39,817 bases of DNA, taken from contig JAMPHJ010000013.1 of the NCBI GenBank assembly GCA_023663465.1, positions 1-39,817 on the forward strand, given 5' to 3'. The notes under the pieces are model-generated. The model did no database searches and was not told where the DNA came from. It saw only the letters and a list, made by a program, of their open reading frames with translations. This DNA is from Muribaculaceae bacterium. Lineage in GTDB: Bacteria; Bacillota; Clostridia; Lachnospirales; Lachnospiraceae. Position 1 is the stretch's first letter; each line of letters starts with the position of its first letter. Below are positions 961 to 38,424 of this stretch, one piece after another. Made by a program: the position numbers and the translations under genes.

Positions 961-2286
961 TTAGGTTACTTCAAACTGTTTCTTCCACACCTTGCCTGTA
1001 GACGGAAACAGTTCCCCAAATCCCAAATCCGTGACTGTCACTTCCGCGCATTCTACGGAAAGCAGTCTCATATCCATGCCATATCTGCTAAAGGCGCCTT
1101 CCCGCACAGGAGCATCTTCCAGCGTGATTTCCCGAAGCTTTGCGCTTTTGCCTGTAAGCGGCGTAATCAGGAAAGAAATAGCATTCTCTTCCCCCGGCAG
1201 AAGGATTTCCCATTCTTTATGCGCCTCGTACCAGTTTTCGCCCGCATCTAACAGGGCATAATAAGATTCTTTCCCACGCTTATATACATTCATTCCGATA
1301 TTGGACTTTAATTTATCCGCTCCCAGAAAAATATGGGCTTTTCCCATCTCGGAAGGTTCTATCCGCTCTAGCAGCCCGTAACAGGCGCCCTTGCCGAACA
1401 GGTTGTTGCCCTGAAAGACCCGGCGGTTCCTGCATAAGAAACGCTGGGATTCCTGCGCCCAGCCATCCCGAAATCCTGCCCCCAACAGATACGCCGCAGA
1501 AATGATTCTGCCGTCGCACTGTTTCTGCAGAATCGTAAGCAGTTTCTCATCGGCAAGCCGGTAACTGTCCCGCTTGATTTCCTCATCTTCCTGCTCACCG
1601 GCAATGACAAATGCCGGATATACCTGCTCTTCAATCAAAACTACGATGGGCGTCGTCTTCTTATTGCACTCCATCCGGTAAGTTTTCAGCCGCATCCCGT
1701 CATGTTCACAGGCAAGCGCCTGATAATGCCACAACTCCTGGGGCTGATGCAGCACAAAATAATAGAAACTTTCCGTATGGCTCTGAAAGGAAATCGCGGA
1801 AGTTTTCAGATGCAAATTCGCCGCCGCCCTCGTCAGCGCTTCTATCATCCCATCGTCCAGACTATCTACCGTAAACATCAATGCCGCAATATTTTCCGGG
1901 GACGTTATGAAATTCAGCAGCGAAAGGCTTCTTTTGATAAACAGTGTCAGCAGCGCCACACAGTCAAATTCTTCCTCTTCTATTGTAATCGTTTCTCCTT
2001 TTCTTGCAAGCTCTACCAGATTCGTGATAAGGCTGCCCTCTTCCTCCTGCTGGCATTTTAGGGCATCTTTTCCATAAAGCCATTGGTTCGTCCCCTTGCG
2101 TTTCCACAATACCGTGGGAATATTGTACTGCTTCGTCCCAATGACGGTGGCTGCGCTTTCCACGCTTTCCCTGCCGTTTCCTTCATAGACACAATAACTA
2201 ATCTGCGAAAAATCGTTTCCCAGATCATACCCGGCAAGGACACTGCCTTTTTCTATTTTTCCTTCCTCTTTCCTCTCAAAGAACAT
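961..2286 (-). CDS. Hsp70/actin-fold-like protein (DUF5716-type)
   Basis: This 441-aa soluble protein seems to be a divergent Hsp70-like ATPase. Residues 19-28 (GYDLGNDFSQ) fit the phosphate-1 loop of the actin/Hsp70 fold. LLGAGF at 267-272 and QGNNLFGKGACYG at 292-304 sit where Hsp70 has its adenosine motif (VGGxSR...) and the following AxGAAxxG helix. Residues about 320-441 are beta-rich, including TPLTGKSAKLREITLED, and could replace the substrate-binding beta domain. The phosphate-2 region (about 190-204, ACEHDGMRL) is poorly conserved, so ATP hydrolysis is not assured. The start has GAGGTGGG a few bases upstream. It lies 56 bp after the 1189-aa gene and 20 bp before the TPR-like gene. 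The DUF5716 label is from memory; the fold is inference from motifs. Confidence 0.75.
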   Translation of the reverse strand: MFFERKEEGKIEKGSVLAGYDLGNDFSQISYCVYEGNGRESVESAATVIGTKQYNIPTVLWKRKGTNQWLYGKDALKCQQEEEGSLITNLVELARKGETITIEEEEFDCVALLTLFIKRSLSLLNFITSPENIAALMFTVDSLDDGMIEALTRAAANLHLKTSAISFQSHTESFYYFVLHQPQELWHYQALACEHDGMRLKTYRMECNKKTTPIVVLIEEQVYPAFVIAGEQEDEEIKRDSYRLADEKLLTILQKQCDGRIISAAYLLGAGFRDGWAQESQRFLCRNRRVFQGNNLFGKGACYGLLERIEPSEMGKAHIFLGADKLKSNIGMNVYKRGKESYYALLDAGENWYEAHKEWEILLPGEENAISFLITPLTGKSAKLREITLEDAPVREGAFSRYGMDMRLLSVECAEVTVTDLGFGELFPSTGKVWKKQFEVT

Positions 2287-2342
2287 AGCCCACCTCTTTG
2301 AAAATTCCCACGCTGCACCTTCGTCTGCGCGCTATTTTGCCA

Positions 2343-5300
2343 CTATTGCGGACTAAACAGTTTTTCAACAATAAAATCCTTCTTATAATATTCCTCTAAC
2401 AATGCATCGACTGTATCATAGTCCTGCAGCGTCCGCCCAATCATGATATCGTTAATCATATGAAATCTGCTGTTCTCATGTTCGATGCTGCCTGCATCGT
2501 TTATGCCCGCCGTGCCGCTCTGTGTCACTTTTTCTACGCCGTCTTCCATCTCCGTAATATAGTATTGCAGCTTTTCCCCAAAAAACAGGATAAAGTCTTT
2601 CACGCAGATTCCGGCAAAGACATCCCGCATCTTTTCCTCACAATACTCCGCTTCCCCGCCATCTTCCCGCAGGATTTTATAATGAATGACAACCCGTCTC
2701 CCCTCTCTGGCGCGATACTCTAAGATGGTCTTATCCTGTAACATATCGACTGCCGGCAGATAATCCTGATAGGTTTTAAACAGAGGCAGTATGATTTCCC
2801 GGTTTAATAATTCCCCTAAAAACTCCCGGATAGGCGCTTTGATTTCTTCCGTGACATCCTTTGGATTCTCTGCGTAATATTGCAGATACGCCAGTTTACA
2901 GACAAGCGGCAGTTCTGCTTTCTCCCGATAGAGCCTGAAAATGCTCTGGATAAGAAAAGGCTCCGTAATTTTTTCCTTAATTACATAGTCGTAAGCGCAC
3001 TGTGAAAGAAAGGCGGATATCACGTCCTCTTTGCCGCCGGCACGCAGATAGGCGCCGAAAATTTCCATCTTTTCCCCGATGTATGCCCCGGTATAAAGCA
3101 TTTGTACGATAATCCGTTCAGCAAGTTCATAACTATCCACTCCGAAAGAAACCGCCGCTTTCCAGATATCCCGCATATCCTTGATGCTGCCGTTAAAATG
3201 CCCAATCAGATAACTTAGAATCGTATCGTCATATTTTCCTTTTTTCAGTACCGTATGAGCGATGCCTAGTAATAGCAAATCTTCCTGCTGCCCTTCCTGC
3301 ACCAATAGTCTGCTGCACAGTTTCACTAACGTCTTAGCGTCAATCCCATAAGGTCCGCTCTTTTCAATCCATGCATAAGCTTCCGGGTACATGCCCCGCA
3401 GCGTCATAATACGCACAATTTCCTGTCTATCGTCAGCTGCCACATCTTCTGGCTGTAAGCAGGAAAGATATTCATCCAGCTCCCACATTCTGTTTTTTTC
3501 ATAATAAAACCGGACTAGCGCCGCCCGGATTTCCCGGCGGTTTCTCTCTAACAAGAAATCTGTATCCGCCAGATAACGGAAGCGTGACACGGTATCTTCC
3601 TGAATATCCAGCGCGCTTTTATGGTCGTAACAGACATAGAGCGCATAGCCTAAATGCTCCCGCACAAAAGGCGCCGCCCATAAAGCAAGCTTGCCCGTCG
3701 TAATCAGGGGCTCCATCCGGTAAGTAATCGTATTCGTATAACGGTTGCCCCTCTCATCTTCCAGCACAATCTTACATTCCTCGTCATAGATGGGCACTCT
3801 GGCATGTCCATCTATGATGGGATATGCAGCCTGCTTTTTCCCGTAAGGATAGACGAGGACAATCTGTCTAATCGTATCGCTTTCCACCGTAATCTCTTTC
3901 ATAAACAAAAGGGGCATCAGCTTCCCTGCCACCTCTTCATCCACCATGGACTGAACGATGAGATTGCGGTAAAGATAGGCAAGGTCTTTGTTAATCCTGC
4001 CGCGTTTTATCTGTTCCACTACAAAACGCTCCATCGTGGAAGCGTAACTTGCGTATATTTCCGGCATTTCTTCCTGATGTTTATGGACATAGGCATATAA
4101 ATACGCCGCCCTGTCGTAAGTCAAATCGTTCTGATAAGAAAAGTACATCAAAATCATCTTCGGCAACGCTTCCCTGCCATCTAGCGGGTGCGACAGCATG
4201 TAGTACTCATACAGCCGGGTAATGCGCAGATTCTGTTCTACGCCGGCACGATACCATTTAAAATACTTCGCGCCATAGAGATTGCCCTTAATCAGCGTGG
4301 AACAAATGGCATGAAGGATATCCTCCCGCGCTTTCTGCCCATAGCAAGTTATCAGAATCCGCAGCAAGGATTCTGAGTAATTCTTCTGTTTCTGCGCCAG
4401 ATAGAGCAGCTGCATCAAAACGTCATCTTTCATGACCTCGTTTTTCGCCGCATAATTTAGAACCTGCAGCTCGAAGGCGCCAAGCCGCAGCAGCATGGCG
4501 GGATTCATACAAAGTAAGAGCCATGCCTCCAGATATAGAATCGGACTGCAGCAGTGGTTGGTAAAAAGCTCCTCTAACAACGTCCATTTGGCGGACAAAC
4601 TTCCATAATACTCGTCCGATACGAACAAAAGCAGCCATGCAATCCGCCAGTCTGCGCGGTTTCTCTCATAGAAAGCGGCTATCCGGGCGGCTGCCCCTCC
4701 GGTATATTCATCATTGTCTTCACATAATGTCGTCAGATACAGGTAATAACAGTAAACCGCCGGCTTCTCCGCCTGCATTTCCTCTGCATCGTCGCTGTAT
4801 AAATCCAGAAGAAACTTCGCTTCATGGAAACACTGTTTTGTAAGTAAAAGCTGCGCCTTAAACAGCTGCGCTACAATATCCCGTCCGTCCAGCTCCTGTA
4901 AACGCTCCACCAGCTTGCCGGTTTCCTCCATCCAGGTCTTGCTGTTTATTTTCTTGAGCCGGAATGCCTGATAATACTGCATTAGCTGCAAAATAAGATG
5001 TTTCTTCTCCCGATGCATACCAAACAGCCGTTTCCTATCCTGTACCGGACGAATCACCGTAAGCGGGATTTCTATCGTCTTCCCGGAACCAATCAGGCGG
5101 ATCCGCCCGTAATTTCTGCCCTCATGGAGCTTGTCCTCCCGGATATAATAGTACAATCTATATAAATTCCCCAGAAATGCTTCTTCTGTAACGTTTTTTT
5201 CCGGGACTTCCAGAAAATCACCGTCTGTTTCTATCTGCAATTGCGTATATCCCCAACCGTTGCGATGAACAACAAGTGCGTAGCGGACCAACGACGCCGG

Positions 5301-5912
5301 CGCTTCTATTTTAATACTCTTTTCATCCGGGATAAATTCTACCGGCTTCTTTTTATGGATTTCCAAGAGAAACTCTTCTACGTTGCGCTCGTTTCCGGGA
5401 TTGCCGGAAAGCCCTTTATACGCCGCAAAGTACTGCTCATCGTTTCCTGTCAGGATTTGTTCAAATTCTTCCTCGTAAAATAATCTGACGGCTTCCGCCC
5501 AGTTGCTTTTCGCAAGATTTGTAAAGTGAAACAAATTTTTTATCTCACCAAGACTAGAAGCAATGGCGCTATTGATAACTTGAATGGAAAAAGGAATCTG
5601 ATATTCCCCCTGATTGGAAATAATAGTAAAAGCGCCTTTTATCTTGTCCCCCGCCTTCATCGCCGTCGTATCGATACGGTAAAAAATCTCATCCCTGCTG
5701 CCGCCGAAAGAAGAGGTCAGGCACTCCATGCGCAAATCGGAAGAGACCACATAGCCTTCCGTTACCGCGCCTTCTAATCCGTATATGAGAAAAGAACCTT
5801 CCTCAATCCTTCCCTGCTCCACGGACAATGCGATATCCGAGCAGGAAAAGTCAAGGGAGCCGCTTTCCAATCTGAAATTTCCTTCTAATATTTCACGGAC
5901 AACCTGTTTCAC
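2343..5912 (-). CDS. Giant solenoid protein (DUF5717-type), function unknown
   Basis: This 1189-aa protein is, to my recollection, a DUF5717 family member common in Lachnospiraceae; no biochemical function is known to me. The first ~110 residues are beta-rich and include alternating-strand segments like an Ig/beta-sandwich (GDKIKGAFTIISNQGEYQIPFSIQV). A second beta-rich region spans about 205-290. From about 310 to 1000 it is helix-rich with irregular TPR-like pairs, consistent with a long alpha-solenoid, interrupted by a beta insert near 680-740. The C-terminus returns to mixed alpha/beta. No signal peptide, transmembrane segment or nucleotide-binding P-loop is visible. The start is GTG with only a weak ribosome binding site; no better in-frame start precedes it. 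It is the first gene of the three-gene unit, behind the extended -10 promoter at 5966-5995. Confidence 0.8.
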   Translation of the reverse strand: MKQVVREILEGNFRLESGSLDFSCSDIALSVEQGRIEEGSFLIYGLEGAVTEGYVVSSDLRMECLTSSFGGSRDEIFYRIDTTAMKAGDKIKGAFTIISNQGEYQIPFSIQVINSAIASSLGEIKNLFHFTNLAKSNWAEAVRLFYEEEFEQILTGNDEQYFAAYKGLSGNPGNERNVEEFLLEIHKKKPVEFIPDEKSIKIEAPASLVRYALVVHRNGWGYTQLQIETDGDFLEVPEKNVTEEAFLGNLYRLYYYIREDKLHEGRNYGRIRLIGSGKTIEIPLTVIRPVQDRKRLFGMHREKKHLILQLMQYYQAFRLKKINSKTWMEETGKLVERLQELDGRDIVAQLFKAQLLLTKQCFHEAKFLLDLYSDDAEEMQAEKPAVYCYYLYLTTLCEDNDEYTGGAAARIAAFYERNRADWRIAWLLLFVSDEYYGSLSAKWTLLEELFTNHCCSPILYLEAWLLLCMNPAMLLRLGAFELQVLNYAAKNEVMKDDVLMQLLYLAQKQKNYSESLLRILITCYGQKAREDILHAICSTLIKGNLYGAKYFKWYRAGVEQNLRITRLYEYYMLSHPLDGREALPKMILMYFSYQNDLTYDRAAYLYAYVHKHQEEMPEIYASYASTMERFVVEQIKRGRINKDLAYLYRNLIVQSMVDEEVAGKLMPLLFMKEITVESDTIRQIVLVYPYGKKQAAYPIIDGHARVPIYDEECKIVLEDERGNRYTNTITYRMEPLITTGKLALWAAPFVREHLGYALYVCYDHKSALDIQEDTVSRFRYLADTDFLLERNRREIRAALVRFYYEKNRMWELDEYLSCLQPEDVAADDRQEIVRIMTLRGMYPEAYAWIEKSGPYGIDAKTLVKLCSRLLVQEGQQEDLLLLGIAHTVLKKGKYDDTILSYLIGHFNGSIKDMRDIWKAAVSFGVDSYELAERIIVQMLYTGAYIGEKMEIFGAYLRAGGKEDVISAFLSQCAYDYVIKEKITEPFLIQSIFRLYREKAELPLVCKLAYLQYYAENPKDVTEEIKAPIREFLGELLNREIILPLFKTYQDYLPAVDMLQDKTILEYRAREGRRVVIHYKILREDGGEAEYCEEKMRDVFAGICVKDFILFFGEKLQYYITEMEDGVEKVTQSGTAGINDAGSIEHENSRFHMINDIMIGRTLQDYDTVDALLEEYYKKDFIVEKLFSPQ

Positions 5913-28202: not shown

Positions 28203-28769
28203 TTATCCCTCTATCATATCTGCAAAATACTTATGTACCCTTAAATCATCGGTGAGTTCCGGGTGAAACGCTGTAACCAGATGATTTCCCTGCCTTGCCG
28301 CAACCATGCGTTCATTGACGACGGCGAGTATCTGCACATCTTTACCGGCCTTGGTGATATAAGGCGCCCTGATAAAAACCATAGGGATTTTCCCGATGCC
28401 GCCAAAATCTGCATCCGCCCGGAAGCTCCCCAACTGCCTTCCATAAGCATTTCTTTTCGCCGTAATATCCATCGTCCTGATTCCATAGGATTCTTCCTCC
28501 TCTATATGCGAAGCAAGAAGAATCAACCCGGCACAGGTTCCAAACACAGGCATTCCGTTTTCTATTTCCGTTTTTACCGGTTCATGCAGTCCCGTATCAT
28601 GTAGCAATTTTGCCATAACAGTGCTTTCGCCGCCCGGAATAATGATACCGTCATGTTCCTTTTCCATGTCCTTCTTCCCGCGTATCTGAAAGTGTTCTAT
28701 TCCCAGCCTGTCCAGGCAGCTTCCATGTTCCGCAAAGGCTCCCTGTAATGCCAATACTCCTATTTTCAA
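28203..28769 (-). CDS. pdxT: PLP synthase glutaminase subunit PdxT
   Basis: A 188-aa class I glutamine amidotransferase that frees ammonia from glutamine for PdxS. The nucleophile is C79 in FGTCAGLILLA; the partners are H169 and E171 in AFHPELTDD. The N-terminal GVLALQGAFAEH and PGGESTVMAKLL are hallmarks of the family. It follows pdxS after 1 bp, so the two are co-translated. Confidence 0.97.
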   Translation of the reverse strand: MKIGVLALQGAFAEHGSCLDRLGIEHFQIRGKKDMEKEHDGIIIPGGESTVMAKLLHDTGLHEPVKTEIENGMPVFGTCAGLILLASHIEEEESYGIRTMDITAKRNAYGRQLGSFRADADFGGIGKIPMVFIRAPYITKAGKDVQILAVVNERMVAARQGNHLVTAFHPELTDDLRVHKYFADMIEG

Positions 28770-28770
28770 T

Positions 28771-29646
28771 CTATTTCCCTCTTTCCGCCATCAGCAGGGC
28801 AATTTCGGACTCATTGATGCCGACCATTGCCTCTCCTAAATCTTCCGATAATTCAGCAATCAGTTTTGCATCCTGATAATTCGTTACCGCCTGGACAATG
28901 GACGCCGCTCTTTTTTCTGGATTGCCTGATTTGAAGATTCCAGAACCGACGAAAACGCCTTCCGCCCCAAGCTGCATCATAAGCGCTGCATCCGCAGGAG
29001 TCGCCACCCCGCCGGCAGCAAAATTCACAACAGGCAGTTTCCCATTTTCATGCACATAACGCAGCAGTTCCACGGATACCTGGAGCTGTTTTGCCGCTTC
29101 ATACAATTCCTCCCCGGAAAGATTCTGCACACGCCTTATTTCCGCATTCATGGCTCTCATATGGCGGACTGCCTGAATGACGTCCCCTGTTCCCGGCTCG
29201 CCTTTCGTCCGAATCATGGAAGCACCCTCGCTGATTCTGCGTAATGCCTCTCCTAAGTCCTTTGCCCCGCAGACAAATGGGACTTTAAATTGATGCTTAT
29301 CAATATGGTACACATCATCCGCCGGGGAAAGCACTTCGCTTTCATCAATATAGTCAATCTCTATCGCTTCCAGAATCTGCGCTTCCACAAAATGTCCGAT
29401 TCTGCACTTTGCCATCACAGGGATGGAAACCGCTTCCTGGATTCCTTTTATCATTTTGGGGTCGCTCATTCTGGAAACGCCACCCGCCGCCCTGATATCC
29501 GCCGGGATTCTCTCAAGCGCCATGACTGCGCACGCACCGGCTTTTTGCGCTATTTGTGCCTGTTCGGGCGTCGTCACGTCCATGATGACTCCGCCTTTTA
29601 ACATCTGGGCAAGATTTTTGTTTAATTCATATCTGTCTTCTGACAT
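28771..29646 (-). CDS. pdxS: PLP synthase subunit PdxS
   Basis: A 291-aa TIM-barrel enzyme that builds pyridoxal 5'-phosphate from ribose-5-phosphate, glyceraldehyde-3-phosphate and ammonia. The key residues are D23 in [13 protein letters not shown]80 in [15 protein letters not shown] and the second lysine in [16 protein letters not shown] lies upstream. It follows nifU by 54 bp without a clear terminator, so it may share the cysK-nifS-nifU transcript. This locus holds several PLP enzymes (NifS, CysK, PatB-like, MetC-like) that need its product. Confidence 0.98.
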
Positions 29647-29700: not shown

Positions 29701-30150
29701 CTATCCAACACAATCCTCTCTTTCCTCTATGTCATCCACCGGGGGTTTTAAACCTTCTATCTGTAAATTATTTTTCCTGGCATAATCCCACAATGCTGCA
29801 TGGACTGCCTCTTCTGCTAAAAGGGAACAATGCACTTTTACGGCGGGAAGTCCGCCAAGCGCTTCCTGCACAGCCTTATTGGTAAGCTTTAGAGCCTCTT
29901 CTATCGATTTGCCTTTAATCAACTCTGTCGCCATACTGCTGGTTGCCACTGCCGCACCACAGCCAAAGGTCTTAAACTTACAGTCCCGAATCATCTGGTT
30001 TTCGTCGATGTCAAGATAAATCCTCATAATATCGCCGCATTTCGCGTTTCCTACGGTTCCGACGCCGCTGGCATTCTCGATTTCTCCCACATTTCTTGGA
30101 TTGCTAAAGTGATCCATGACCTTTTCACTGTATTCTATAATCTGACTCAT
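29701..30150 (-). CDS. nifU: Iron-sulfur cluster scaffold NifU/IscU-like protein
   Basis: A 149-aa scaffold on which Fe-S clusters are assembled. The three ligand cysteines are C38 (NAKCGD, with D40), C64 (FGCGAA) and C108 (VHCSLLAEEA). The C-terminus extends past the IscU core by a short acidic tail. It lies 19 bp after nifS, its sulfur donor. It has the NifU N-terminal domain only, lacking the central [2Fe-2S] and C-terminal Nfu domains, as usual for this group in Clostridia. Confidence 0.95.
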   Translation of the reverse strand: MSQIIEYSEKVMDHFSNPRNVGEIENASGVGTVGNAKCGDIMRIYLDIDENQMIRDCKFKTFGCGAAVATSSMATELIKGKSIEEALKLTNKAVQEALGGLPAVKVHCSLLAEEAVHAALWDYARKNNLQIEGLKPPVDDIEEREDCVG

Positions 30151-30169: not shown

Positions 30170-31360
30170 TCAACCTTCGCCCCGTTCTTTTTTCATAAAA
30201 TCTTCATAGAGCGGCGACATACTGCGGAGTCTCTCTACGATTTTTTTCAGTTCCTCAATCACATAGTCCAGTTCCTCTTTCGTGGTCTCATCAGAAAGCG
30301 TCAAACGAAGGGAACCATGCGCTATTTCATGGGGAAGCCCGATTGCAAGCAGCACATGGGACGGGTCAAGGGAACCGGAAGTGCAGGCGGAACCGCTGGA
30401 TGCGGCTATCTCTTTCTGGTCAAGCAATATCAGCAGCGACTCTCCTTCGATAAACCGGAAAGAAAAGTTCGCATTATTGGAAAGGCGCCTGTCCTTATGC
30501 CCGTTCAGTCTCGTATAGGGTATCTCTGCAAGCACCCTGTCTATCAGATAGTCCCGTAATTCGCTTTCATAGGCATGCCGTTTCTCAAGCTCCCTATCTG
30601 CTATTTCCGTCGCCTTTCCAAAACCGATAATTCCCGGCGTATTATGGGTTCCTGCCCTCCTGCCCCGTTCCTGCGCTCCGCCGTGGATAAAAGAACCGAT
30701 TTTTACTAAATTACGGATATATAAGATGCCTACGCCCTTAGGACCATTGATTTTATGGGCGCTTGCACTTAATAAATCAATGTTTAATTCCTCGACGTCA
30801 ATCCGTTCATGCCCGTATGCCTGCACCGCATCTGTGTGGAACAGGATTCCGTTTTTGCGCGCAATTTCCCCGATTTCCTGAATCGGCTGAATCGTTCCTA
30901 TCTCATTGTTTGCAAACATCACCGTAATGAGGATTGTGTCTTCTCTGACTGCCGCCTTTAATTCCTCCAGTCTTATGACCCCGTTTTCATCCACTCCCAC
31001 ATAAGTAATCTCAAAACCAAGTTTTTCCAGATACCCGCAGGTATGCAGGATTGCATGATGTTCTATCGTAGAGGTTATAATATGTTTTCCTTTCTCACGG
31101 TTTGCAAATGCAGCCGCTTGTAACGCCCAGTTGTCTGACTCGCTGCCGCCCCCCGTAAAATAGATTTCTTCCGGTTTCGCATTCAGGAAATCCGCAATTA
31201 CGGCTCTTGACTCATCAATCGCTTTCCTGCTTTTTCCTGCGAAACGATAAATGCTAGACGGGTTTCCATACTGCTCTTTAAAATAAGGCAGCATTGCCTC
31301 ATACACTTCGTCCCTTACCTTGGTTGTTGCTGCGTTATCCAGATAAATCAATCTACTCAT
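30170..31360 (-). CDS. nifS: Cysteine desulfurase NifS/IscS-like
   Basis: A 396-aa PLP enzyme that takes sulfur from cysteine and passes it to the scaffold protein. The PLP lysine is K203 in SAHKINGPKG, the persulfide cysteine C326 in SSGSACTSGSLDPSH, and the N-terminus reads IYLDNAATT. I placed the start at ATG 31360, 20 codons inside the open frame: GAGGTGG lies upstream and the family begins here; the upstream GTG has no site. It lies 59 bp after cysK, next to nifU. Confidence 0.96.
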   Translation of the reverse strand: MSRLIYLDNAATTKVRDEVYEAMLPYFKEQYGNPSSIYRFAGKSRKAIDESRAVIADFLNAKPEEIYFTGGGSESDNWALQAAAFANREKGKHIITSTIEHHAILHTCGYLEKLGFEITYVGVDENGVIRLEELKAAVREDTILITVMFANNEIGTIQPIQEIGEIARKNGILFHTDAVQAYGHERIDVEELNIDLLSASAHKINGPKGVGILYIRNLVKIGSFIHGGAQERGRRAGTHNTPGIIGFGKATEIADRELEKRHAYESELRDYLIDRVLAEIPYTRLNGHKDRRLSNNANFSFRFIEGESLLILLDQKEIAASSGSACTSGSLDPSHVLLAIGLPHEIAHGSLRLTLSDETTKEELDYVIEELKKIVERLRSMSPLYEDFMKKERGEG

Positions 31361-31419
31361 CCTGCTAACCACCTCTATCGTATATTTATGCTCCCTATTC
31401 CTCACGCCTGTAAGGAACA

Positions 31420-32355
31420 CTAATTTGCAAAAAGCGGCGTAGACAGATATCTGTCCCCGGAATCCGGCAATAATACCACGATATTCTTACCCGCATTCTC
31501 TGGTCTGGATGCCAGAATCAAGGCTGCTTTTAATGCCGCCCCGGATGAAATTCCCACAAGAATCCCTTCCGCTAAAGCAAATGCTTTTCCTTCTGCAAAA
31601 GCGTCTTCATTTTCTATGGTAATTACTTCATCATAAATCTTGGTGTTCAATACTTCTGGCACGAAGCCCGCGCCAATCCCCTGAATCTTATGCGCTCCCG
31701 GTGTCCCTTTAGAAAGAACGGGGCTTGTTGCCGGTTCTACCGCCACCACTTTGATATTCGGATTCTGTTCCTTTAGGTATTCTCCTACACCGGTCACTGT
31801 ACCGCCTGTGCCGACGCCCGCCACGAAAATATCCACCTTTCCATCCGTCTGCTTCCAGATTTCGGGACCTGTGGTGGCTTTATGGACTGCCGGGTTGGCA
31901 GGATTTACAAACTGCCCAAGGATAATGGAACCCTCTATTTCCTGATTCAGCTCTTCCGCCTTTGCGATTGCCCCTTTCATTCCCTTTGCGCCTTCCGTAA
32001 GCACTAATTCGGCTCCGTATGCTTTCAAAAGATTCCTGCGCTCTACGCTCATCGTATCGGGCAGCGTCAGGATTGCCTTATAGCCTTTGGCTGCTGCCAC
32101 TGCTGCAAGACCGATTCCCGTATTGCCGCTGGTCGGCTCGATAATCGTTGCGCCCGGTTTTAACTTTCCCGCTTTTTCTGCATCTTCAATCATGGCAAGG
32201 GCAATCCTGTCCTTTACCGAACCTGCCGGATTTAAGTATTCCAGCTTCGCCAAGATAGCTGCCCCCTCGATACCTGCCTTCTGACTGTAACGATTTAACT
32301 TTAAGATGGGGGTCCCCCCGATTAATTCCAATGCGCTTTCTTTGATTTCAGACAT
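31420..32355 (-). CDS. cysK: Cysteine synthase A (O-acetylserine sulfhydrylase)
   Basis: A 311-aa PLP enzyme making cysteine from O-acetylserine and sulfide. The PLP lysine is K48 in [11 protein letters not shown]; the substrate loop [10 protein letters not shown] and the phosphate-binding [10 protein letters not shown] are present. The start used is ATG 32355, with GGAGG 8 bp upstream; an ATG five codons earlier has no site. A near-consensus promoter and a palindrome (32390-32408) lie upstream. The cysteine it makes is the substrate of the downstream nifS product and of the glutamate-cysteine ligase. Confidence 0.97.
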
Positions 32356-32389
32356 ATCCTCTACCTCCATTTTCTTTGCTTCATTTATT

Positions 32390-32408
32390 ACCTATCTTTT
32401 TAATAGGT
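32390..32408. promoter_or_regulatory. Operator-like palindrome downstream of the cysK start point
   Basis: ACCTAT, seven bases, ATAGGT. It lies about 24-42 bp downstream of the -10, suiting a repressor that blocks elongation or early initiation. A close relative lies at the lysR promoter (38451-38476), and half-sites lie in the Rrf2/metC gap. An Rrf2-type (CymR/IscR-like) regulator is the obvious candidate; this is inference. Confidence 0.6.
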
Positions 32409-32431: not shown

Positions 32432-32460
32432 ATTATAGTGCCTTGATAGAGAACTGTCAA
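32432..32460 (-). promoter_or_regulatory. cysK promoter, full consensus
   Basis: On the minus strand TTGACA (32455-32460) and TATAAT (32432-32437) are separated by exactly 17 bp, an ideal sigma-A promoter. Such a strong promoter is usually held down by a repressor, which fits the palindrome just downstream. Confidence 0.92.
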
Positions 32461-32521: not shown

Positions 32522-33784
32522 CTACAGTCTGCTTTCCGCAAGTTTTACTCCATTTTTTACATATCCGTCCCCGAACCGCTCCCTTATCTGCCATGCATAC
32601 CGCTCCTTAGCGTCTATGAATTTTTTCTCTTGAAAGCGTAAAACTTCCTGCACCTTTTTGGGGTACTCCCGATAAAACCGCTCCATTTCCTGTATCACAG
32701 CCAGGGCTGCATCTGCCCCGGAATAAGTTTCTCCGTCTGGCATTACTATTTTTACTGTTTTCAAATCGTAGTGCGCGGCATTTTTATAATTCTGTACCGC
32801 CTGTATCTGCTGTTTTTCATTAAGCTCTAACGCCGGTGTGGCAGCCAGCCAGCAGATTAACAACTGGGCAAAAGCCACATCCCGCACGTCCAACCCGTAT
32901 TCCGCTAAAGGATTACAATCAATCATCCGCAGCTCCACATGATTTACCCCGTTTTCTACCAGGGAATCCAGGTCATTTACGCCTTTTGGCTTCAACCGGA
33001 TTGGATAGTATAACTCGGAAGGCGCCTGTATCATTCCTTTGTCAATATATCCGCGTATGCTGTCCGCATAACTGACAAGACTCGCATAATCAAAGATGGG
33101 CGTGAAAAAATTCCAATACCCAAGCTCGCTGCACCGCACAGAAGCAAGCCCCAGAAATACATCTTCCCCGCATTTTCCTTTTTCCACATAGGAGCGGTCA
33201 AGCAGCGGACTTGCCGCAGTTGCAGCAACCATAATCCAGCCGTATGCAGCCAGCTTTTGCGCCAATTCCAGATATAGTTTATTTTTAAACTCTTTATAGT
33301 CATTTCCCCTGCTTTGCGCAAAAGCAGCGTTTAACAACTCTTCTGAAAAAGAATAGTTTAAATGAATCCCGCTGAATGCCATCTTATATCTTCCATACCT
33401 GTCGGAAAGATAATTCCGGTAACTTGTTTTTACACTTTCACTGCCGGTAAATTCCGCCACCGGGATATCCCCTTCGTTTTTTATGTAAGGCGGATTGGAA
33501 AAAGCCCACAAAAGTTCGGGCTGCGGCAAATGGTTTAAGGTATCCTGAATCCGGCGGTAATATTTTCCCAGCGCCTCTACGGCTCCCTGCGGGCTATACT
33601 CCACCCCCGTATTAATCTCTATCTGATTTTCGCAAAAGTCACGGACAATATGACTATCCCCTGGAAACGGATGCGGCGTATGCGCCAGATAACCGTCTTT
33701 ATCCGTCCGCAGACTTTCCAACTCCAATCCAAATTCACCAAGCAAAAGCTTTTCTTTTATTTTTTCGATTGTAATATCTAACAT
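32522..33784 (-). CDS. Glutamate-cysteine ligase, GshAB N-terminal type, without the synthetase half
   Basis: A 420-aa ATP-dependent ligase that would join glutamate and cysteine through the gamma-carboxyl. It matches the ligase half of bifunctional GshAB: FGLELESLRTD...LAHTPHPF near the start, DFCENQIEINT, YRNYLSDRYG, SGIHLNYSF and HVELRMIDCNPL. No ATP-grasp glutathione synthetase domain follows and none is encoded nearby. So the product may be gamma-glutamylcysteine, or the acceptor may be another amino compound. I placed the start at ATG 33784, which has GGAG 9 bp upstream; ATG 33799 is possible. It begins 19 bp after the amidotransferase gene and is the last gene of the four-gene operon. 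Confidence 0.88.
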   Translation of the reverse strand: MLDITIEKIKEKLLLGEFGLELESLRTDKDGYLAHTPHPFPGDSHIVRDFCENQIEINTGVEYSPQGAVEALGKYYRRIQDTLNHLPQPELLWAFSNPPYIKNEGDIPVAEFTGSESVKTSYRNYLSDRYGRYKMAFSGIHLNYSFSEELLNAAFAQSRGNDYKEFKNKLYLELAQKLAAYGWIMVAATAASPLLDRSYVEKGKCGEDVFLGLASVRCSELGYWNFFTPIFDYASLVSYADSIRGYIDKGMIQAPSELYYPIRLKPKGVNDLDSLVENGVNHVELRMIDCNPLAEYGLDVRDVAFAQLLICWLAATPALELNEKQQIQAVQNYKNAAHYDLKTVKIVMPDGETYSGADAALAVIQEMERFYREYPKKVQEVLRFQEKKFIDAKERYAWQIRERFGDGYVKNGVKLAESRL

Positions 33785-33803
33785 ATCTGAATGCTCCATT
33801 TTA

Positions 33804-34577
33804 TTATAATGCAGAATAATCCAGAAATAAGGCTTCCATATCTTCTGGATTGTCAATATACTCATAATGATGATTGGTTCCCCTATATATCAATTCCCCA
33901 GCTTTCCACACGCCAAGTACGGACATGGGCACCGGCTTCCATTGGCGTTTTCCCAGCGGTCTTGTGGAAAAATAAACACAGCCTTCTTCTTGTAGGTAAA
34001 ATAAAGAATCCGCGTAATTTGTATGCACATAAAGGCATTCCCCGTCAAAAATCAAAAGATTGGCCTTATTCCCTTCCACAATCCCGCATAAGATCCTATC
34101 AACCACAGTAAAACGCTCCTGCTCTGTCAGCGGATACCCCGTTTCTTCCTGCTTTTCGTCAATCTGGTCGATTAGATAGTAAAGAATCCGCTCACTGTCC
34201 GTCTGCCCCTCCTGTTTATAAAAATAGGAATCCAGCACCGGACACCGGAACATGGTCCCATTGTGCGCCAGCGTCCACCGTCTGCCAGAGCTGTCCTGTC
34301 TCACGAAAGGATGACAGTTTTCATATTCCATATTTCCCTTCGTCGCCAGCCGGATATGGGCGATGGCTTCCCGGATAGAAATCTCATGACGCAGCCGTTC
34401 TTTCAGGTAGACGCTGGCATCCGCCCGGATTGGCTCTTTTTCCAGGGAAGCCATGCCGTGATAGAACAATGCCAGCCCCCATCCGTGCGGGTGTTCCCTG
34501 CTATGGGAATAAAATTCCCATAAAAAATCATTGATTTTCGTTTTTTCCCTGCTGCATACACCAAATAATTCGCACAT
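33804..34577 (-). CDS. Class II glutamine amidotransferase (YafJ/EgtC-like)
   Basis: A 257-aa Ntn-type amidohydrolase. Cys2 follows the initiator Met (MCELFGV) and is the likely nucleophile after Met removal. HSREHPHGWGLAL, AHIRLATKG, NCHPFV and LAHNGTM are the class II glutaminase motifs. There is no synthase domain, so it is a free-standing GATase like YafJ or EgtC; EgtC removes a gamma-glutamyl group during ergothioneine synthesis. Its place directly before a glutamate-cysteine ligase suggests it cleaves a gamma-glutamyl bond in the same pathway. That is inference; no EgtB or EgtD is present in the window. GAGAGGAT precedes the ATG. Confidence 0.88.
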   Translation of the reverse strand: MCELFGVCSREKTKINDFLWEFYSHSREHPHGWGLALFYHGMASLEKEPIRADASVYLKERLRHEISIREAIAHIRLATKGNMEYENCHPFVRQDSSGRRWTLAHNGTMFRCPVLDSYFYKQEGQTDSERILYYLIDQIDEKQEETGYPLTEQERFTVVDRILCGIVEGNKANLLIFDGECLYVHTNYADSLFYLQEEGCVYFSTRPLGKRQWKPVPMSVLGVWKAGELIYRGTNHHYEYIDNPEDMEALFLDYSAL

Positions 34578-34615
34578 TACCGCTATCCTCTCTTCACTTC
34601 TGCTTCAGACATCTT

Positions 34616-35815
34616 TTAGGATTTCGCATTTTCCTGCCGGACGGCTTCCTTTAGCTGCGCCAGCGCTTTTTCCAGAATCACGCGCGGACATGCCACATTG
34701 AATCTCTCAAATCCCTCCCCGGCTTTGCCAAAGATGGCGCCGGAATCCAGCCAGAGATTTGCCTTTTGCACAATGAGTTCTTCCAGCTTAGCTTCCGATA
34801 ACCCAAGCCTTCTAAAATCCACCCAGACAAGATACGTCCCCTCTGTTTCTATCATCGTAAGCTGTGGCAGTTCCCTTTCCAGATATTCTTTCATAAACCG
34901 GATATTGGCTTGTACATATTCCATCATTGCCTCATACCATCCGTTTCCGCAGCGGTACGCTGCCTCGCAGGCGGTCAGCCCTATGACGTTTAACTGGCTG
35001 TATCCTGCTGCCGCAATCTGTTTCTTAAACCGGCTGCGGAGTTTTCCATCGGGAATCAAAATATTCGATACCTGAAGTCCTGCAAGGTTAAATGTTTTGG
35101 CCGGCGAGGTACAGACAATGGATACTTCTTCCAACTCTTTTCTCAGATTGGCGAATACAAGATGCTTTCTGTTTCCCCACACGAAATCCTCGTGAATCTC
35201 ATCGCTTACGACAATCACATGATGTTTTAAACATATTTCCCCTATTTTCAGCAGTTCTTCCTCTGTCCACACCCTGCCTACCGGATTATGGGGACTGCAT
35301 AAGAAAAAGAGGGTTATTTTCTCTTCCACGATTTTTCTTTCAAAATCCTCAAAATCAATCCTATATTTTCCATCTTTTGTCAGAAGTAAGTCATTACTAA
35401 CCACTTTCCTGCCATTATCCTCTATCACTTCTGAAAAAGGATAGTATACAGGGCGTTGAATCAGGACCGCGTCGCCTGCTTTCGTATATGCCTTTACCGC
35501 CATCGCCAGTGCAAACACTACGCCCGGTGTTTTCACAAGCCAGTTTTTTTCTATTTTCCAGCTATGCCGCCTGTCCATCCAGTCCGCCACTGCCTCAAAA
35601 TAGCTATCTCCGCTCTCCGTATAACCAAAAATTCCATGTTCTATCCTTTTATGGATTTCATCCAGTATCTTTTCCGACGTCTGAAAATCCATATCCGCCA
35701 CCCAGAGCGGCAGAACATCTTCCGGTTTCCCGCGCTTTATAGCAAAATCATATTTCAGGGAGTCCGTATTTCTTCTGTCAATCACTGTATCAAAATCAAA
35801 TGTTTCTTCCCGCAT
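34616..35815 (-). CDS. PatB/MalY-like cystathionine beta-lyase (C-S lyase)
   Basis: A 399-aa fold-type I PLP enzyme. The PLP lysine is K240 in TSPAKTFNLAGLQVSN. The N-terminus (DTVIDRRNTDSLKYD...LPLWVADMDF) and CSPHNPVGRVW are typical of PatB/MalY. Members cleave carbon-sulfur bonds of cystathionine or S-substituted cysteines, releasing thiol, ammonia and pyruvate. GGAG lies upstream of the ATG, which is 14 bp after the metC-like stop. The substrate cannot be told from sequence. Confidence 0.93.
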   Translation of the reverse strand: MREETFDFDTVIDRRNTDSLKYDFAIKRGKPEDVLPLWVADMDFQTSEKILDEIHKRIEHGIFGYTESGDSYFEAVADWMDRRHSWKIEKNWLVKTPGVVFALAMAVKAYTKAGDAVLIQRPVYYPFSEVIEDNGRKVVSNDLLLTKDGKYRIDFEDFERKIVEEKITLFFLCSPHNPVGRVWTEEELLKIGEICLKHHVIVVSDEIHEDFVWGNRKHLVFANLRKELEEVSIVCTSPAKTFNLAGLQVSNILIPDGKLRSRFKKQIAAAGYSQLNVIGLTACEAAYRCGNGWYEAMMEYVQANIRFMKEYLERELPQLTMIETEGTYLVWVDFRRLGLSEAKLEELIVQKANLWLDSGAIFGKAGEGFERFNVACPRVILEKALAQLKEAVRQENAKS

Positions 35816-35829
35816 AAATGCACTCCTTT

Positions 35830-36981
35830 TTATCCAAACGATTCTATTGCCTGTTTCAAATCTGCTATTAAATCATTCTTATCTTCAATCCCTGCCGAAA
35901 GCCGCAGTATCCTATCGGTAAGCCCGTTTTTTATCCGTACTTCTTCCGGCACATCCGCATGGGTCTGCGTTACCGGATAGGTAAGAAGCGTTTCCGTTCC
36001 GCCCAGACTTTCTGCGAAAGGAATCAGCCTGGTGGACTTTAAGATATGAAGCGCAAGTTCCCTGCTTTCCACCTCAAAAGTCAGCATACTGCCAAACCCG
36101 CTTGCCTGGCTTTTACAGACTTCATACCCCTTGCTGCCCGGTATCCCCGGATAATAGACCTTTTTCACGTTAGGCTCGCACAAAAGATATTCCGCCAGAG
36201 CCTTCGCGTTTTCCTGCGCTTTTTCCATACGAAGCGGCAGTGTTTTCACTCCCCGGAGAATCAGCCAGCTATCAAAGGGCGAAAGTCCCGAACCCACCGT
36301 CTTTATGAGGAACCGGAGTTTATCCGATATTTCCTGCGAATTAGTCACGATAAAACCTGCCAGCGTATCATTGTGCCCGCCCAAAAACTTCGTGCCGCTA
36401 TGAATCACGATATCCGCACCCAGCTCAAAGGGTTTCTGGAAATAAGGGGACATAAAAGTATTGTCCACAATCAGGATAAGACCATGTTTCTTGGCAATTC
36501 CAGCGATTTTACGGATATCTACCACATTCATCATCGGATTGGTGGGCGTTTCAATATAAATTGCTTTGGTATTTTCCTGTATGTAATCTTCTACATCTTC
36601 TGTAGAACAGTCGATATGACTGAATAAAATACCATTTTTCTCATTCACATTCTGGAAAAGCCGGATACTGCCACCGTACAAATCTGCATCCGTAATCAGA
36701 TGGTCTCCCGGTCTAAACAATTCCATCATCGCTGTAATCGCCGCCATCCCGGAAGAAAATGCCAGTGCATCGATTCCTCCTTCTAAGGCAGCCACTATTT
36801 TTTCCACCTGCTGCCTCGTAGGATTCTGCAACCTGCTATAATCAAATCCTGTGCTTTTCCCCACTTCCGGGTGCGCATAAGTCGCCGTCTGATAAATTGG
36901 AAAGCTGATTGCTCCTGTCCTATCCTGCTCATAATCCCCGCCGTTTCCATAGATACATTTGGTTGCAAAATTATAATTCAT
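35830..36981 (-). CDS. Cys/Met-metabolism PLP enzyme (cystathionine gamma-synthase/lyase type)
   Basis: A 383-aa enzyme of the MetB/MetC/CGL family. The PLP lysine is K198 in IHSGTKFLGGHND; YSRLQNPTRQQVE, SSGMAAITA and ETPTNPMMNVVDI are family motifs. It could make cystathionine, split it, or degrade homocysteine or cysteine; the members are not safely separable by eye. It is the first gene of the operon that continues with the patB-like, amidotransferase and ligase genes. It is divergent from the Rrf2 regulator with a 98-bp gap, which suggests control by it. AAGGAAAGGG precedes the ATG. Confidence 0.92.
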   Translation of the reverse strand: MNYNFATKCIYGNGGDYEQDRTGAISFPIYQTATYAHPEVGKSTGFDYSRLQNPTRQQVEKIVAALEGGIDALAFSSGMAAITAMMELFRPGDHLITDADLYGGSIRLFQNVNEKNGILFSHIDCSTEDVEDYIQENTKAIYIETPTNPMMNVVDIRKIAGIAKKHGLILIVDNTFMSPYFQKPFELGADIVIHSGTKFLGGHNDTLAGFIVTNSQEISDKLRFLIKTVGSGLSPFDSWLILRGVKTLPLRMEKAQENAKALAEYLLCEPNVKKVYYPGIPGSKGYEVCKSQASGFGSMLTFEVESRELALHILKSTRLIPFAESLGGTETLLTYPVTQTHADVPEEVRIKNGLTDRILRLSAGIEDKNDLIADLKQAIESFG

Positions 36982-37003: not shown

Positions 37004-37030
37004 ACCTACGTTTTCTGTGGTAAGATAGGT
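37004..37030. promoter_or_regulatory. Rrf2/metC-like intergenic operator half-sites
   Basis: ACCTAC (37004-37009) and ATAGGT (37025-37030) face each other in the 98-bp gap between the divergent metC-like and Rrf2 genes. TTACC...GGTAA also forms an inverted pair here. The ATAGGT half-site matches those at cysK and lysR. No promoter of good quality is visible in this gap. Confidence 0.4.
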
Positions 37031-37079: not shown

Positions 37080-37511
37080 TTGAAAATTTCTACTCGTGGA
37101 AGGTACTCCTTCCGCATGATGATAGACTTAGCGCAGCACTATAATGAAGGTTTCATCGCACTCAAAGATATTTCTGCCAGACAGAATATTTCCAAAAAAT
37201 ATCTGGAACAGATTATCCCGTTTTTAAACCGCAATAACCTGCTTCTTGCCAACAAGGGGCATATGGGCGGCTATCAGCTTGCAAGACACCCCAGCGAAAT
37301 TACCGTCAGGGAAATCTTAGAAAGTGCGGAAGGCAGTCTTACGCCGGTAAGCTGCATGGACAACACTCCCAACCGTTGTGAAAATGCAAACAACTGCATT
37401 ACCCTGCCTGTCTATCAGGGGCTTTATAAGGTCATACTCGATTACCTGAATGGAATCACACTTGCCGACGTCATTAACAGAAAAAATGACAATTGCGAAT
37501 ACTATATCTGA
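37080..37511 (+). CDS. Rrf2-family transcriptional regulator (IscR/CymR-like)
   Basis: A 143-aa winged-helix repressor. The N-terminal ISTRGRYSFRMMIDLA and DISARQNISKKYLEQII with NKGHMGGYQLAR are the Rrf2 DNA-binding region. Cysteines C92, C100 and C106 lie in the loop where IscR binds its [2Fe-2S] cluster (IscR spacing is 92, 98, 104), so it may sense iron-sulfur status. CymR, by contrast, senses cysteine synthase. The start is TTG with AAGGAGG 8 bp upstream. It is divergent from the metC-like operon and tail-to-tail with lysR, 1 bp apart. Likely targets are the neighbouring sulfur genes. Confidence 0.93.
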   Translation: MKISTRGRYSFRMMIDLAQHYNEGFIALKDISARQNISKKYLEQIIPFLNRNNLLLANKGHMGGYQLARHPSEITVREILESAEGSLTPVSCMDNTPNRCENANNCITLPVYQGLYKVILDYLNGITLADVINRKNDNCEYYI

Positions 37512-37512
37512 C

Positions 37513-38424
37513 CTATCGCCCTTTGTCGCTGCCATATTTTTTTAAAATCTGAATATATTCCTGCCCTATGATGCTCAAGGGCATATTCTTCCTCTTGATG
37601 TATCCGATTGTCATGGAATCGGATGTGTCCAAAGGAACGGAAACATAATTTCCGCCATTCAGATTTCCGCAGATAATGCCGGAGCAGAGCGTATACCCAT
37701 TCATGCCCACCATGAGGTTCAGCATGGTTGCCCTGTCATTCGCCTTGATAATCTGTTTATAATGCAAGGTACTGAGTACTTCCTCTGCAAAATAAAAGGC
37801 ATTTTTATCTCCCTGGTCAAAGGATAAGCATGGATAAGGTTCCAATTCCTCAAAGCTGATTTTCGCCCTGTCCGCCAGCGGATGTCTGCCGGAAAGATAG
37901 ACGGAAATTCCGCAATCAAATAACGGTACAAATTCCAATCCATTTTCCTTAAAAATCTTATCTAACGCTTTCTGGTTAAAATCATTTAAATACAACACGC
38001 CGATTTCACTGCGCCTGTCCCTGACATTTTCTATCACTTCATAGGTTTTGGTTTCATGCACTGCAAGCTCAAATTCATTCATGGAAAATGTTTTCCCAAG
38101 CTCGATAAAGGCTTCCACCGCAAAGGAGTAATGCTGCATGGATACGGAAAATTTTTTCTTCTGCCCCTTATCCTGTGTATAGCGTTCACTGACCATCTGG
38201 CTTATTTCCACTATTTGCCGGGCATAACTTAAAAACTCCTCCCCTTCCGCCGTTATCACGATTCCCTTATTAGAGCGAAGGAAAATCTGCGTATGCAATT
38301 CTTCTTCCAAATCCCTGATTGCCCCGGATAGGGCCGGCTGGGAAACAAATAGCTCCGCCGCTGCTTTATTCATGGACTTTTTTTCTGCAACTTTTACTAC
38401 ATAAATTAGCTGTGATAGTGTCAT
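37513..38424 (-). CDS. LysR-family transcriptional regulator
   Basis: A 303-aa regulator. The N-terminal helix-turn-helix reads SMNKAAAELFVSQPALSGAIRDLEEELHTQIFLRSNKGIVIT; the rest is the usual effector-binding domain (about 90-295). AGGAG lies 8 bp before the ATG. It ends 1 bp from the stop of the convergent Rrf2 gene. Sharing an operator-like sequence with cysK, it may belong to the same sulfur circuit, as do CysB, CmbR and CysL among LysR regulators. The effector is unknown. Confidence 0.92.
   Translation of the reverse strand: MTLSQLIYVVKVAEKKSMNKAAAELFVSQPALSGAIRDLEEELHTQIFLRSNKGIVITAEGEEFLSYARQIVEISQMVSERYTQDKGQKKKFSVSMQHYSFAVEAFIELGKTFSMNEFELAVHETKTYEVIENVRDRRSEIGVLYLNDFNQKALDKIFKENGLEFVPLFDCGISVYLSGRHPLADRAKISFEELEPYPCLSFDQGDKNAFYFAEEVLSTLHYKQIIKANDRATMLNLMVGMNGYTLCSGIICGNLNGGNYVSVPLDTSDSMTIGYIKRKNMPLSIIGQEYIQILKKYGSDKGR

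Follow-up and report, generated by a model that had tools for sequence, protein, structure and literature searches.

The window analysed here, a stretch of 39,817 nucleotides from contig JAMPHJ010000013.1 (assembly GCA_023663465.1), carries a tight minus-strand operon of four genes encoding a MetC-like pyridoxal phosphate (PLP) enzyme, a PatB-family C-S lyase, a free-standing class II amidotransferase-fold protein (GAT) and a glutamate-cysteine ligase of the GshA type (GCL) (Table 1). We propose, tentatively, that this operon is a gamma-glutamylcysteine (gamma-Glu-Cys) cassette, anaerobic and similar in logic to EgtA-EgtC-EgtE, that works without ergothioneine. The proposal draws on the gene families, the conservation of active sites, the conserved GCL-GAT pair, the exchange of ligases beside one GAT and a DNA dyad shared by the relatives. 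In the predicted scheme, with activities assigned by family, GCL would couple glutamate to cysteine, and the thiol of the resulting gamma-Glu-Cys would gain an organic group from a presumed acceptor, either spontaneously from an electrophile or via a still unfound enzyme. The flow would then run to GAT, which as an EgtC-like N-terminal-cysteine hydrolase would strip the gamma-glutamyl cap and leave a cysteine S-conjugate, and to PatB (perhaps also the MetC-like enzyme), which would cleave the C-S bond to give a thiol, pyruvate and ammonia. Such a route would in effect parallel the mercapturate/C-S-lyase route under anaerobic conditions and without glutathione, and CysK and the candidate Rrf2 dyad would link it to the supply of cysteine.

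Gene identities

Family scans confirmed the four genes that the original prediction, made from the sequence alone, had named at these positions. Its description of two C-S lyases holds for one of them: the patB product is, by family assignment, a true PatB-family enzyme, and the MetC-like protein is uncertain in this respect because it reached no cut-off among the 25 NCBIfam models listed (the best, PRK07671, gave 457.6 bits against a cut-off of 594). The intergenic gaps are 14 nt between the metC-like gene and patB and 38 nt between patB and the GAT gene. GAT has the fold, the catalytic Cys2 and the gamma-glutamyl-binding residues of an EgtC/YafJ-fold N-terminal-cysteine hydrolase; in a structural comparison it scored 24.4 with EgtC and 23.6 with PurF, a score that fails to separate the two.

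The GCL frame is open from 33865 to 32522. Its start is most likely the ATG at 33784, and 33865 is too far upstream, because a GGAG site stands 9 nt before this ATG, which lies 19 nt past the GAT stop, and several of 12 aligned relatives start at the equivalent methionine. The ligase was said to match only the N-terminal half of the bifunctional GshAB, and the NF002688 match (253 bits, under the cut-off of 425) is indeed limited to profile positions 10-411 of 756. Its relatives in the Protein Data Bank are GshAB (3ln7/3ln6) and E. coli GshA (1v4g). The catalytic residues of the GshA family, mapped onto 1v4g, are kept in GCL, including those that we take to form the cysteine pocket.

Conservation of the ligase-hydrolase pair

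Two surveys were made, of 200 genomes drawn from the family and 391 drawn from the class. GCL was found in 13 and GAT in 19 genomes of the family draw; in the class draw, a GCL-type match was found in 29 and GAT in 16. These 29 comprise 10 matches above 420 bits, one split in two pieces (G535) and a group of 18 scoring 175-315 bits, in which 11 have GshAB-like open frames of 765-790 amino acids (aa). With the GCL profile, the GshAB-length proteins of the class survey scored 286-315 bits versus 423-690 for the free-standing set. Three GAT genomes are common to both draws, leaving 32 distinct ones, and in 26 of these GAT stands in one row with a ligase-type gene (GCL, or the GCSx and GCS2b described below).

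A closer view was obtained from 80 loci, the best 80 of at least 553 relatives ranked by likeness to the window GAT in a named-genome scan; since they were chosen by this likeness, they lean towards near relatives. They include the near-copies L051/L052 and L049/L050, and L084, L086, L105 and L106 are contigs of the genomes G130, G183, G188 and G010. GAT occurs with GCL at 40 loci, with GCL and GCSx at 27, with GCSx at 5, with GCL and GCS2b at 1 and alone at 7. GCL or a piece of it is thus present at 68 loci, five being pieces that cover fewer than 300 of 427 model positions, and it is co-stranded with GAT in all 68, at a distance of 150 bp or less in 63. The pairing of GCL and GAT is conserved and no accident. 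We found no description of it in the literature searched, which is no proof of its being unpublished.

Exchangeable ligases

Three ligase families occur beside GAT: the GshA-type GCL, a plant-type GCS2 (GCS2b) and a divergent GCS2 (GCSx). Therefore, GAT is the fixed element and the ligase can be exchanged. GCSx is a protein of about 460 aa whose L046 member has no Pfam match of its own, and a profile of nine GCSx proteins matches plant glutamate-cysteine ligase structures (E 6e-15). It is present at 32 of the 80 loci, three times as a piece. GCS2b, which is TIGR01436/PF04107-like (L026 member scanned), was seen at L026, L028 and L139-L142. GCL and GCSx are also found fused, with GCL first at L027 (880 aa) and GCSx first at L144 (887 aa) and at L056 of Anaerobutyricum hallii (819 aa; the GCSx part is shortened to model positions 29-386 of 463); the different domain orders indicate at least two fusion events. 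A 995-aa GCL frame at L076 was rejected as a further fusion, being an over-long frame in which only PF04262 matches, in the C-terminal half.

In the 391 genomes, GCSx gave six matches above 500 bits, all in one row with GAT (five adjacent; G395 has GCL between). The remaining 19 matching genomes, at 171-260 bits and none of them among the GAT genomes, probably hold another subfamily. A 445-aa protein at L106:1444-2781 (the same as L045), between GCS2b and GCL, has no Pfam or NCBIfam match and in our own reading looks like a permuted ATP-grasp ligase.

A shared dyad and recurring cysteine genes

The dyad ACCTAY-N7-RTAGGT was first noticed in the window, as a perfect site upstream of cysK, and many relatives have it before their ligase, GAT and cysK genes. 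In 79 relatives (957 kb) it was found 45 times at no more than one mismatch, 10 times perfectly, and six shuffles gave 0-6. Thirty of the 45 sites fall immediately before genes for GCL, GAT, GCSx, GCS2b, CysK, MetC, PatB, Rrf2, LysR or NifS, in stretches that make up 8.9% of the DNA. These counts are not an independent test, because the final pattern was set only once 15 matches of a looser version had been seen in these loci. Twelve permuted dyads had 0-1 perfect matches against the 10 of the real one. In a hold-out of 30 other loci, from which the copies L032, L043, L045 and L046 were excluded, 4 of 11 sites are upstream of such genes, in stretches that make up 5.3% of the DNA (p 0.002); a single GCS2b-GAT pair (L142) accounts for two of these four, and the other 7 sites lie elsewhere.

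The window Rrf2 protein has the cysteine pattern CX7CX5C (Cys 92, 100 and 106), and a similar three-cysteine pattern is present in 14 of 21 Rrf2 frames of the 80 loci. It scored under the equivalog cut-offs of both IscR (TIGR02010, 115.2 versus 207.55) and CymR (NF047409, 100.3 versus 195). A regulator of this type perhaps reads the dyad. The CymR and IscR motifs are described as alike in an excerpt of PMC3828012, and the rrf2-iscS-iscU genes of C. perfringens are up under cysteine limitation according to an excerpt of PMC2940859.

The best hits to window proteins in the 80 loci were MetC-like 25, CysK 24, PatB 16, Rrf2 14 and LysR 8; MetC, PatB or CysK is present at 37. One locus that combines GCL-GAT with PatB, L070, is from Anaerostipes sp. 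992a. Assuming about one PatB per 3-Mb genome, fewer than one PatB would be expected by chance in 80 loci. On a GCL tree of 63 rows, made by a quick method, PatB requires 7 changes when the 39 rows with a PatB or GCSx label are considered (supported branches force 6 or more of them) and 9 when every row counts. The average over shuffles was 11.6, so the label is clustered yet recurrent; gain and loss are not separable. An apparent mutual exclusion of PatB and GCSx (both at 1 of 80 loci, Fisher p 0.003) was dropped: independent pairs were not significant, and at 33 of the 80 loci the sequence ends within 4 kb of GAT on one side. The two occur together at L043 (8 kb apart) and at L042 (GAT-GCSx-PatB in a row).

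The earlier suggestion of an undescribed gamma-glutamyl-thiol pathway is strengthened by the exchangeable ligases beside one GAT, the fusions, the shared dyad and the recurring cysteine genes.

Glutathione and ergothioneine

Sixteen genomes (the own genome of the window, G000, 12 with PatB-type loci, G056, G079 and G188) were searched for the enzymes that would complete known pathways. Glutathione synthetase (PF02955) matched in none of the 16, against 9/14 in the positive control. A GshAB match above cut-off was likewise found in none, although the ligase half matches in all 16. Weak matches to the GshAB C-terminal half occur in G000 and in other genomes; the two in G000, those that were checked, were rejected as synthetase halves because both are D-Ala-D-Ala ligases. 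The PF08886 profile, which represents the wrong GshA family, matched neither in G000 nor in the controls. EgtD was found in 0 of 16 genomes, moderate evidence only since the control was weak (1/14, under cut-off). G000 is 86% complete, so each single absence in it is soft. Glutathione and ergothioneine are unlikely products of the operon; the lack of synthetase and EgtD noted in the original prediction is supported within the scope of these searches, as is the kinship of the operon to the EgtA/EgtC logic.

Weighing the proposal

An excerpt of PMC4493562 places the hydrolase of ergothioneine synthesis after conjugation. If the same order held here, a futile cycle of ligase and hydrolase would be avoided, and hydrolysis after conjugation, with PatB and MetC supplying C-S cleavage as the next step, makes the S-conjugate route the best reading. 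Several observations weigh against it. No conjugating enzyme or acceptor was found. PatB at 45% identity or more is present at only 15 of the 80 loci, so the C-S lyase cannot be counted among the fixed components, and PatB and MetC might act in cystathionine metabolism and be linked to the cassette by common regulation only. The GAT score with the EgtC model TIGR03442 (47.2 bits) is far under the cut-off of 218.65. GAT was found without a ligase neighbour in 6 of the 32 genomes, namely G155, G577, G124 (contig edge), G184 (fragments), G200 (GCL on another contig) and G060 of the same genus, where GAT is present (contig C25, L024) and neither GCL nor GCSx was found. Conversely, GCL is present in G198, G012, G062 and G548, where GAT was not found. 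Finally, a standard dyad is lacking before the metC operon of the window, where only wide-spaced half-sites stand, so that control of this operon by the dyad is unproved.

The main rival, ranked next after the S-conjugate route and somewhat unlikely in our view, holds that gamma-Glu-Cys is itself the end product, a low-molecular-weight thiol and protected cysteine store that GCL would fill and GAT would release, with PatB and MetC only co-regulated. The adjoining cysK and dyad fit such a store, as does the finding of no glutathione synthetase in the 16 genomes. No second ligase was found in G000, either with the GCSx model or as a GCS2 type (PF04107), and GCSx was found in 0 of the 12 genomes with a PatB-type locus, whereas the same model matched in 10 of 22 genomes in another search. 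Directly after GCSx, L073 (member scanned) and L098 carry a thioredoxin-reductase-like gene; a relative follows CysK at L120, and a title cited in PMC7278568 names gamma-Glu-Cys as a major thiol of halobacteria. However, to express ligase and hydrolase together from one operon would be futile if GAT did not favour a different substrate, and the genes around the operon in the window showed no disulfide reductase.

The same GCSx results bear on a further explanation, in which the window is a reduced form of a two-ligase pathway: GCL would make gamma-Glu-Cys, GCSx or an ATP-grasp enzyme would add a group X to the cysteine carboxylate, and GAT, by removing glutamate, would leave a Cys-X thiol. The frequency of GCSx, its fusions to GCL, the constant company of its strong matches with GAT and an ATP-grasp-type gene cluster at L077, L096 (member scanned), L101, L110 and L117 speak for it, but GCSx was not found in G000 or in the 12 PatB-type genomes, and we consider this explanation improbable for the window. 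On a wider scale, Clostridia, including the human gut species A. hallii, may have an undescribed gamma-Glu-Cys small-thiol system in which one EgtC-like hydrolase is teamed with a ligase from any one of the three families. Its full form, GCL-GCSx, at times a single fused protein, would lead through gamma-Glu-Cys-X to a new Cys-X thiol, and the window form would combine conjugation of gamma-Glu-Cys with C-S lyase cleavage in an anaerobic, mercapturate-like manner. We regard this general picture as unlikely on present evidence.

Salvage of imported, for example dietary, gamma-glutamyl-S-substituted cysteines, with GAT removing glutamate and PatB/MetC freeing the thiol, was also raised in the original prediction. 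Amino-acid-type ABC importer genes adjoin GAT at L024 (G060), L095, L069 and L051 (some scanned, the rest in our own reading), which leaves the idea some probability. It is nevertheless less well supported and has little chance of being correct because a ligase that makes gamma-Glu-Cys would be needless, leaving GCL without a role, and because the window genes neighbouring the operon showed no importer.

Class II amidotransferases often act as glutaminases that feed ammonia to a partner, and the PurF and GlmS folds score near EgtC, but that GAT is a glutaminase serving an amide-making ligase is very improbable, as GAT is also seen next to importer genes where it has no ligase neighbour, is fused to a ligase at 0 of 80 loci and accompanies a GCL with its presumed cysteine-pocket residues kept.

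Neighbouring genes and further observations

The surroundings of the operon are listed in Table 1. The original prediction, which overall is partly supported, did not include the relatives' third ligase, the dyad or the LysR, Rrf2, CysK and PdxST surroundings. An Rfam scan of the window gave no match at gathering scores. Two big adjacent proteins of unknown function, DUF5716_C and DUF5717, are encoded at 961-5912.

Table 1. Coordinates of the operon and its surroundings in the window.
Feature	Position	Strand	Basis
PdxT (PLP synthesis)	28203..28769	-	Our own reading of the open reading frame; relatives adjoin PdxS at L053, L093, L108
PdxS (PLP synthesis)	28771..29646	-	Our own reading of the open reading frame; relatives at 3/80 loci
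NifU-type Fe-S scaffold	29701..30150	-	TIGR03419 above cut-off
NifS/IscS cysteine desulfurase	30170..31420	-	TIGR03402 above cut-off
CysK, cysteine synthase, probably next transcription unit	31420..32370	-	TIGR01139, 450 bits, above cut-off of 350.95
Dyad ACCTATTAAAAAGATAGGT, perfect site upstream of cysK, candidate Rrf2 operator	32390..32408	-	Sole site with at most 1 mismatch in the window
Sigma-70-type promoter-like site TTGACA-17-TATAAT upstream of cysK	32432..32460	-	Direct reading
GCL, glutamate-cysteine ligase, GshA type, no synthetase half, 420 aa	32522..33784	-	PF04262, 186 bits, gathering cut-off 27
GAT, free-standing class II amidotransferase-fold protein, predicted gamma-glutamyl amidohydrolase	33804..34577	-	PF13230
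PatB-family C-S (beta-)lyase	34616..35815	-	TIGR04350, 476.9 bits, above cut-off of 340
MetC-like PLP enzyme (cystathionine gamma-lyase/beta-lyase/gamma-synthase family), operon gene 1	35830..36981	-	PF01053, 476 bits
Half-sites ACCTAC + ATAGGT, 15 nt apart, between metC and divergent Rrf2 gene; non-standard dyad	37004..37030		Direct reading
Rrf2-family regulator, IscR/CymR-like, divergent from operon	37080..37511	+	PF02082, TIGR00738 above cut-off
LysR regulator	37513..38424	-	PF00126 + PF03466; relatives at GCL/GAT loci elsewhere (8/80)

Among the relatives, a 206-aa C39-peptidase-like protein (YDCGPTAM motif, Pfam just under cut-off) recurs beside or near GAT at L070, L081, L083, L086, L094, L102, L107, L108 and L123, and also at L031 and L043; at L123, GAT and this neighbour stand directly upstream of an ethanolamine-utilisation gene (EutA). 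An esterase-like gene lies around GCL-GAT at L076, L077, L096, L101 and L110, in four of the five with an ATP-grasp-type gene too, and this variant block is in tandem duplicate at L101. Loci L048, L077, L101, L104, L105 and others are titled, for example, Muribaculaceae, Myxococcales or Planctomycetales, yet look clostridial and possibly come from mislabelled or mixed metagenome-assembled genomes; L048 is close to the Blautia locus L047.

Comparison with known systems

To our knowledge, the small thiol, if any, of glutathione-free anaerobic Clostridia is poorly known. The conserved ligase-hydrolase(-lyase) cassette with a cysteine/Fe-S-type regulator is a defined gene set with testable substrates, and it could account for the way gut bacteria deal with thiol-reactive drugs and with sulphur compounds from the diet.

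The mycobacterial egtABCDE genes likewise unite a glutamate-cysteine ligase, a class II amidotransferase-fold gamma-glutamyl hydrolase and a PLP C-S lyase. In contrast to that system, the window GCL is of the GshA type (PF04262) and not GCS2, the lyase is of the PatB family and GAT is only distantly EgtC-like by score; EgtD was not found in the genomes searched, and oxygen-dependent coupling is not expected in an anaerobe. The GCL resembles the N-terminal ligase half of the bifunctional GshAB (GshF), whose synthetase half is absent here. The haloarchaeal thiol system uses gamma-Glu-Cys without glutathione, as proposed for the window, although we know of no dedicated gamma-glutamyl hydrolase and C-S lyase in it. 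The CymR/IscR cysteine and Fe-S regulons of Firmicutes, as in the window, place an Rrf2 regulator beside cysK and nifS/nifU, whereas the candidate regulon described here also includes a gamma-glutamylcysteine ligase and its hydrolase.

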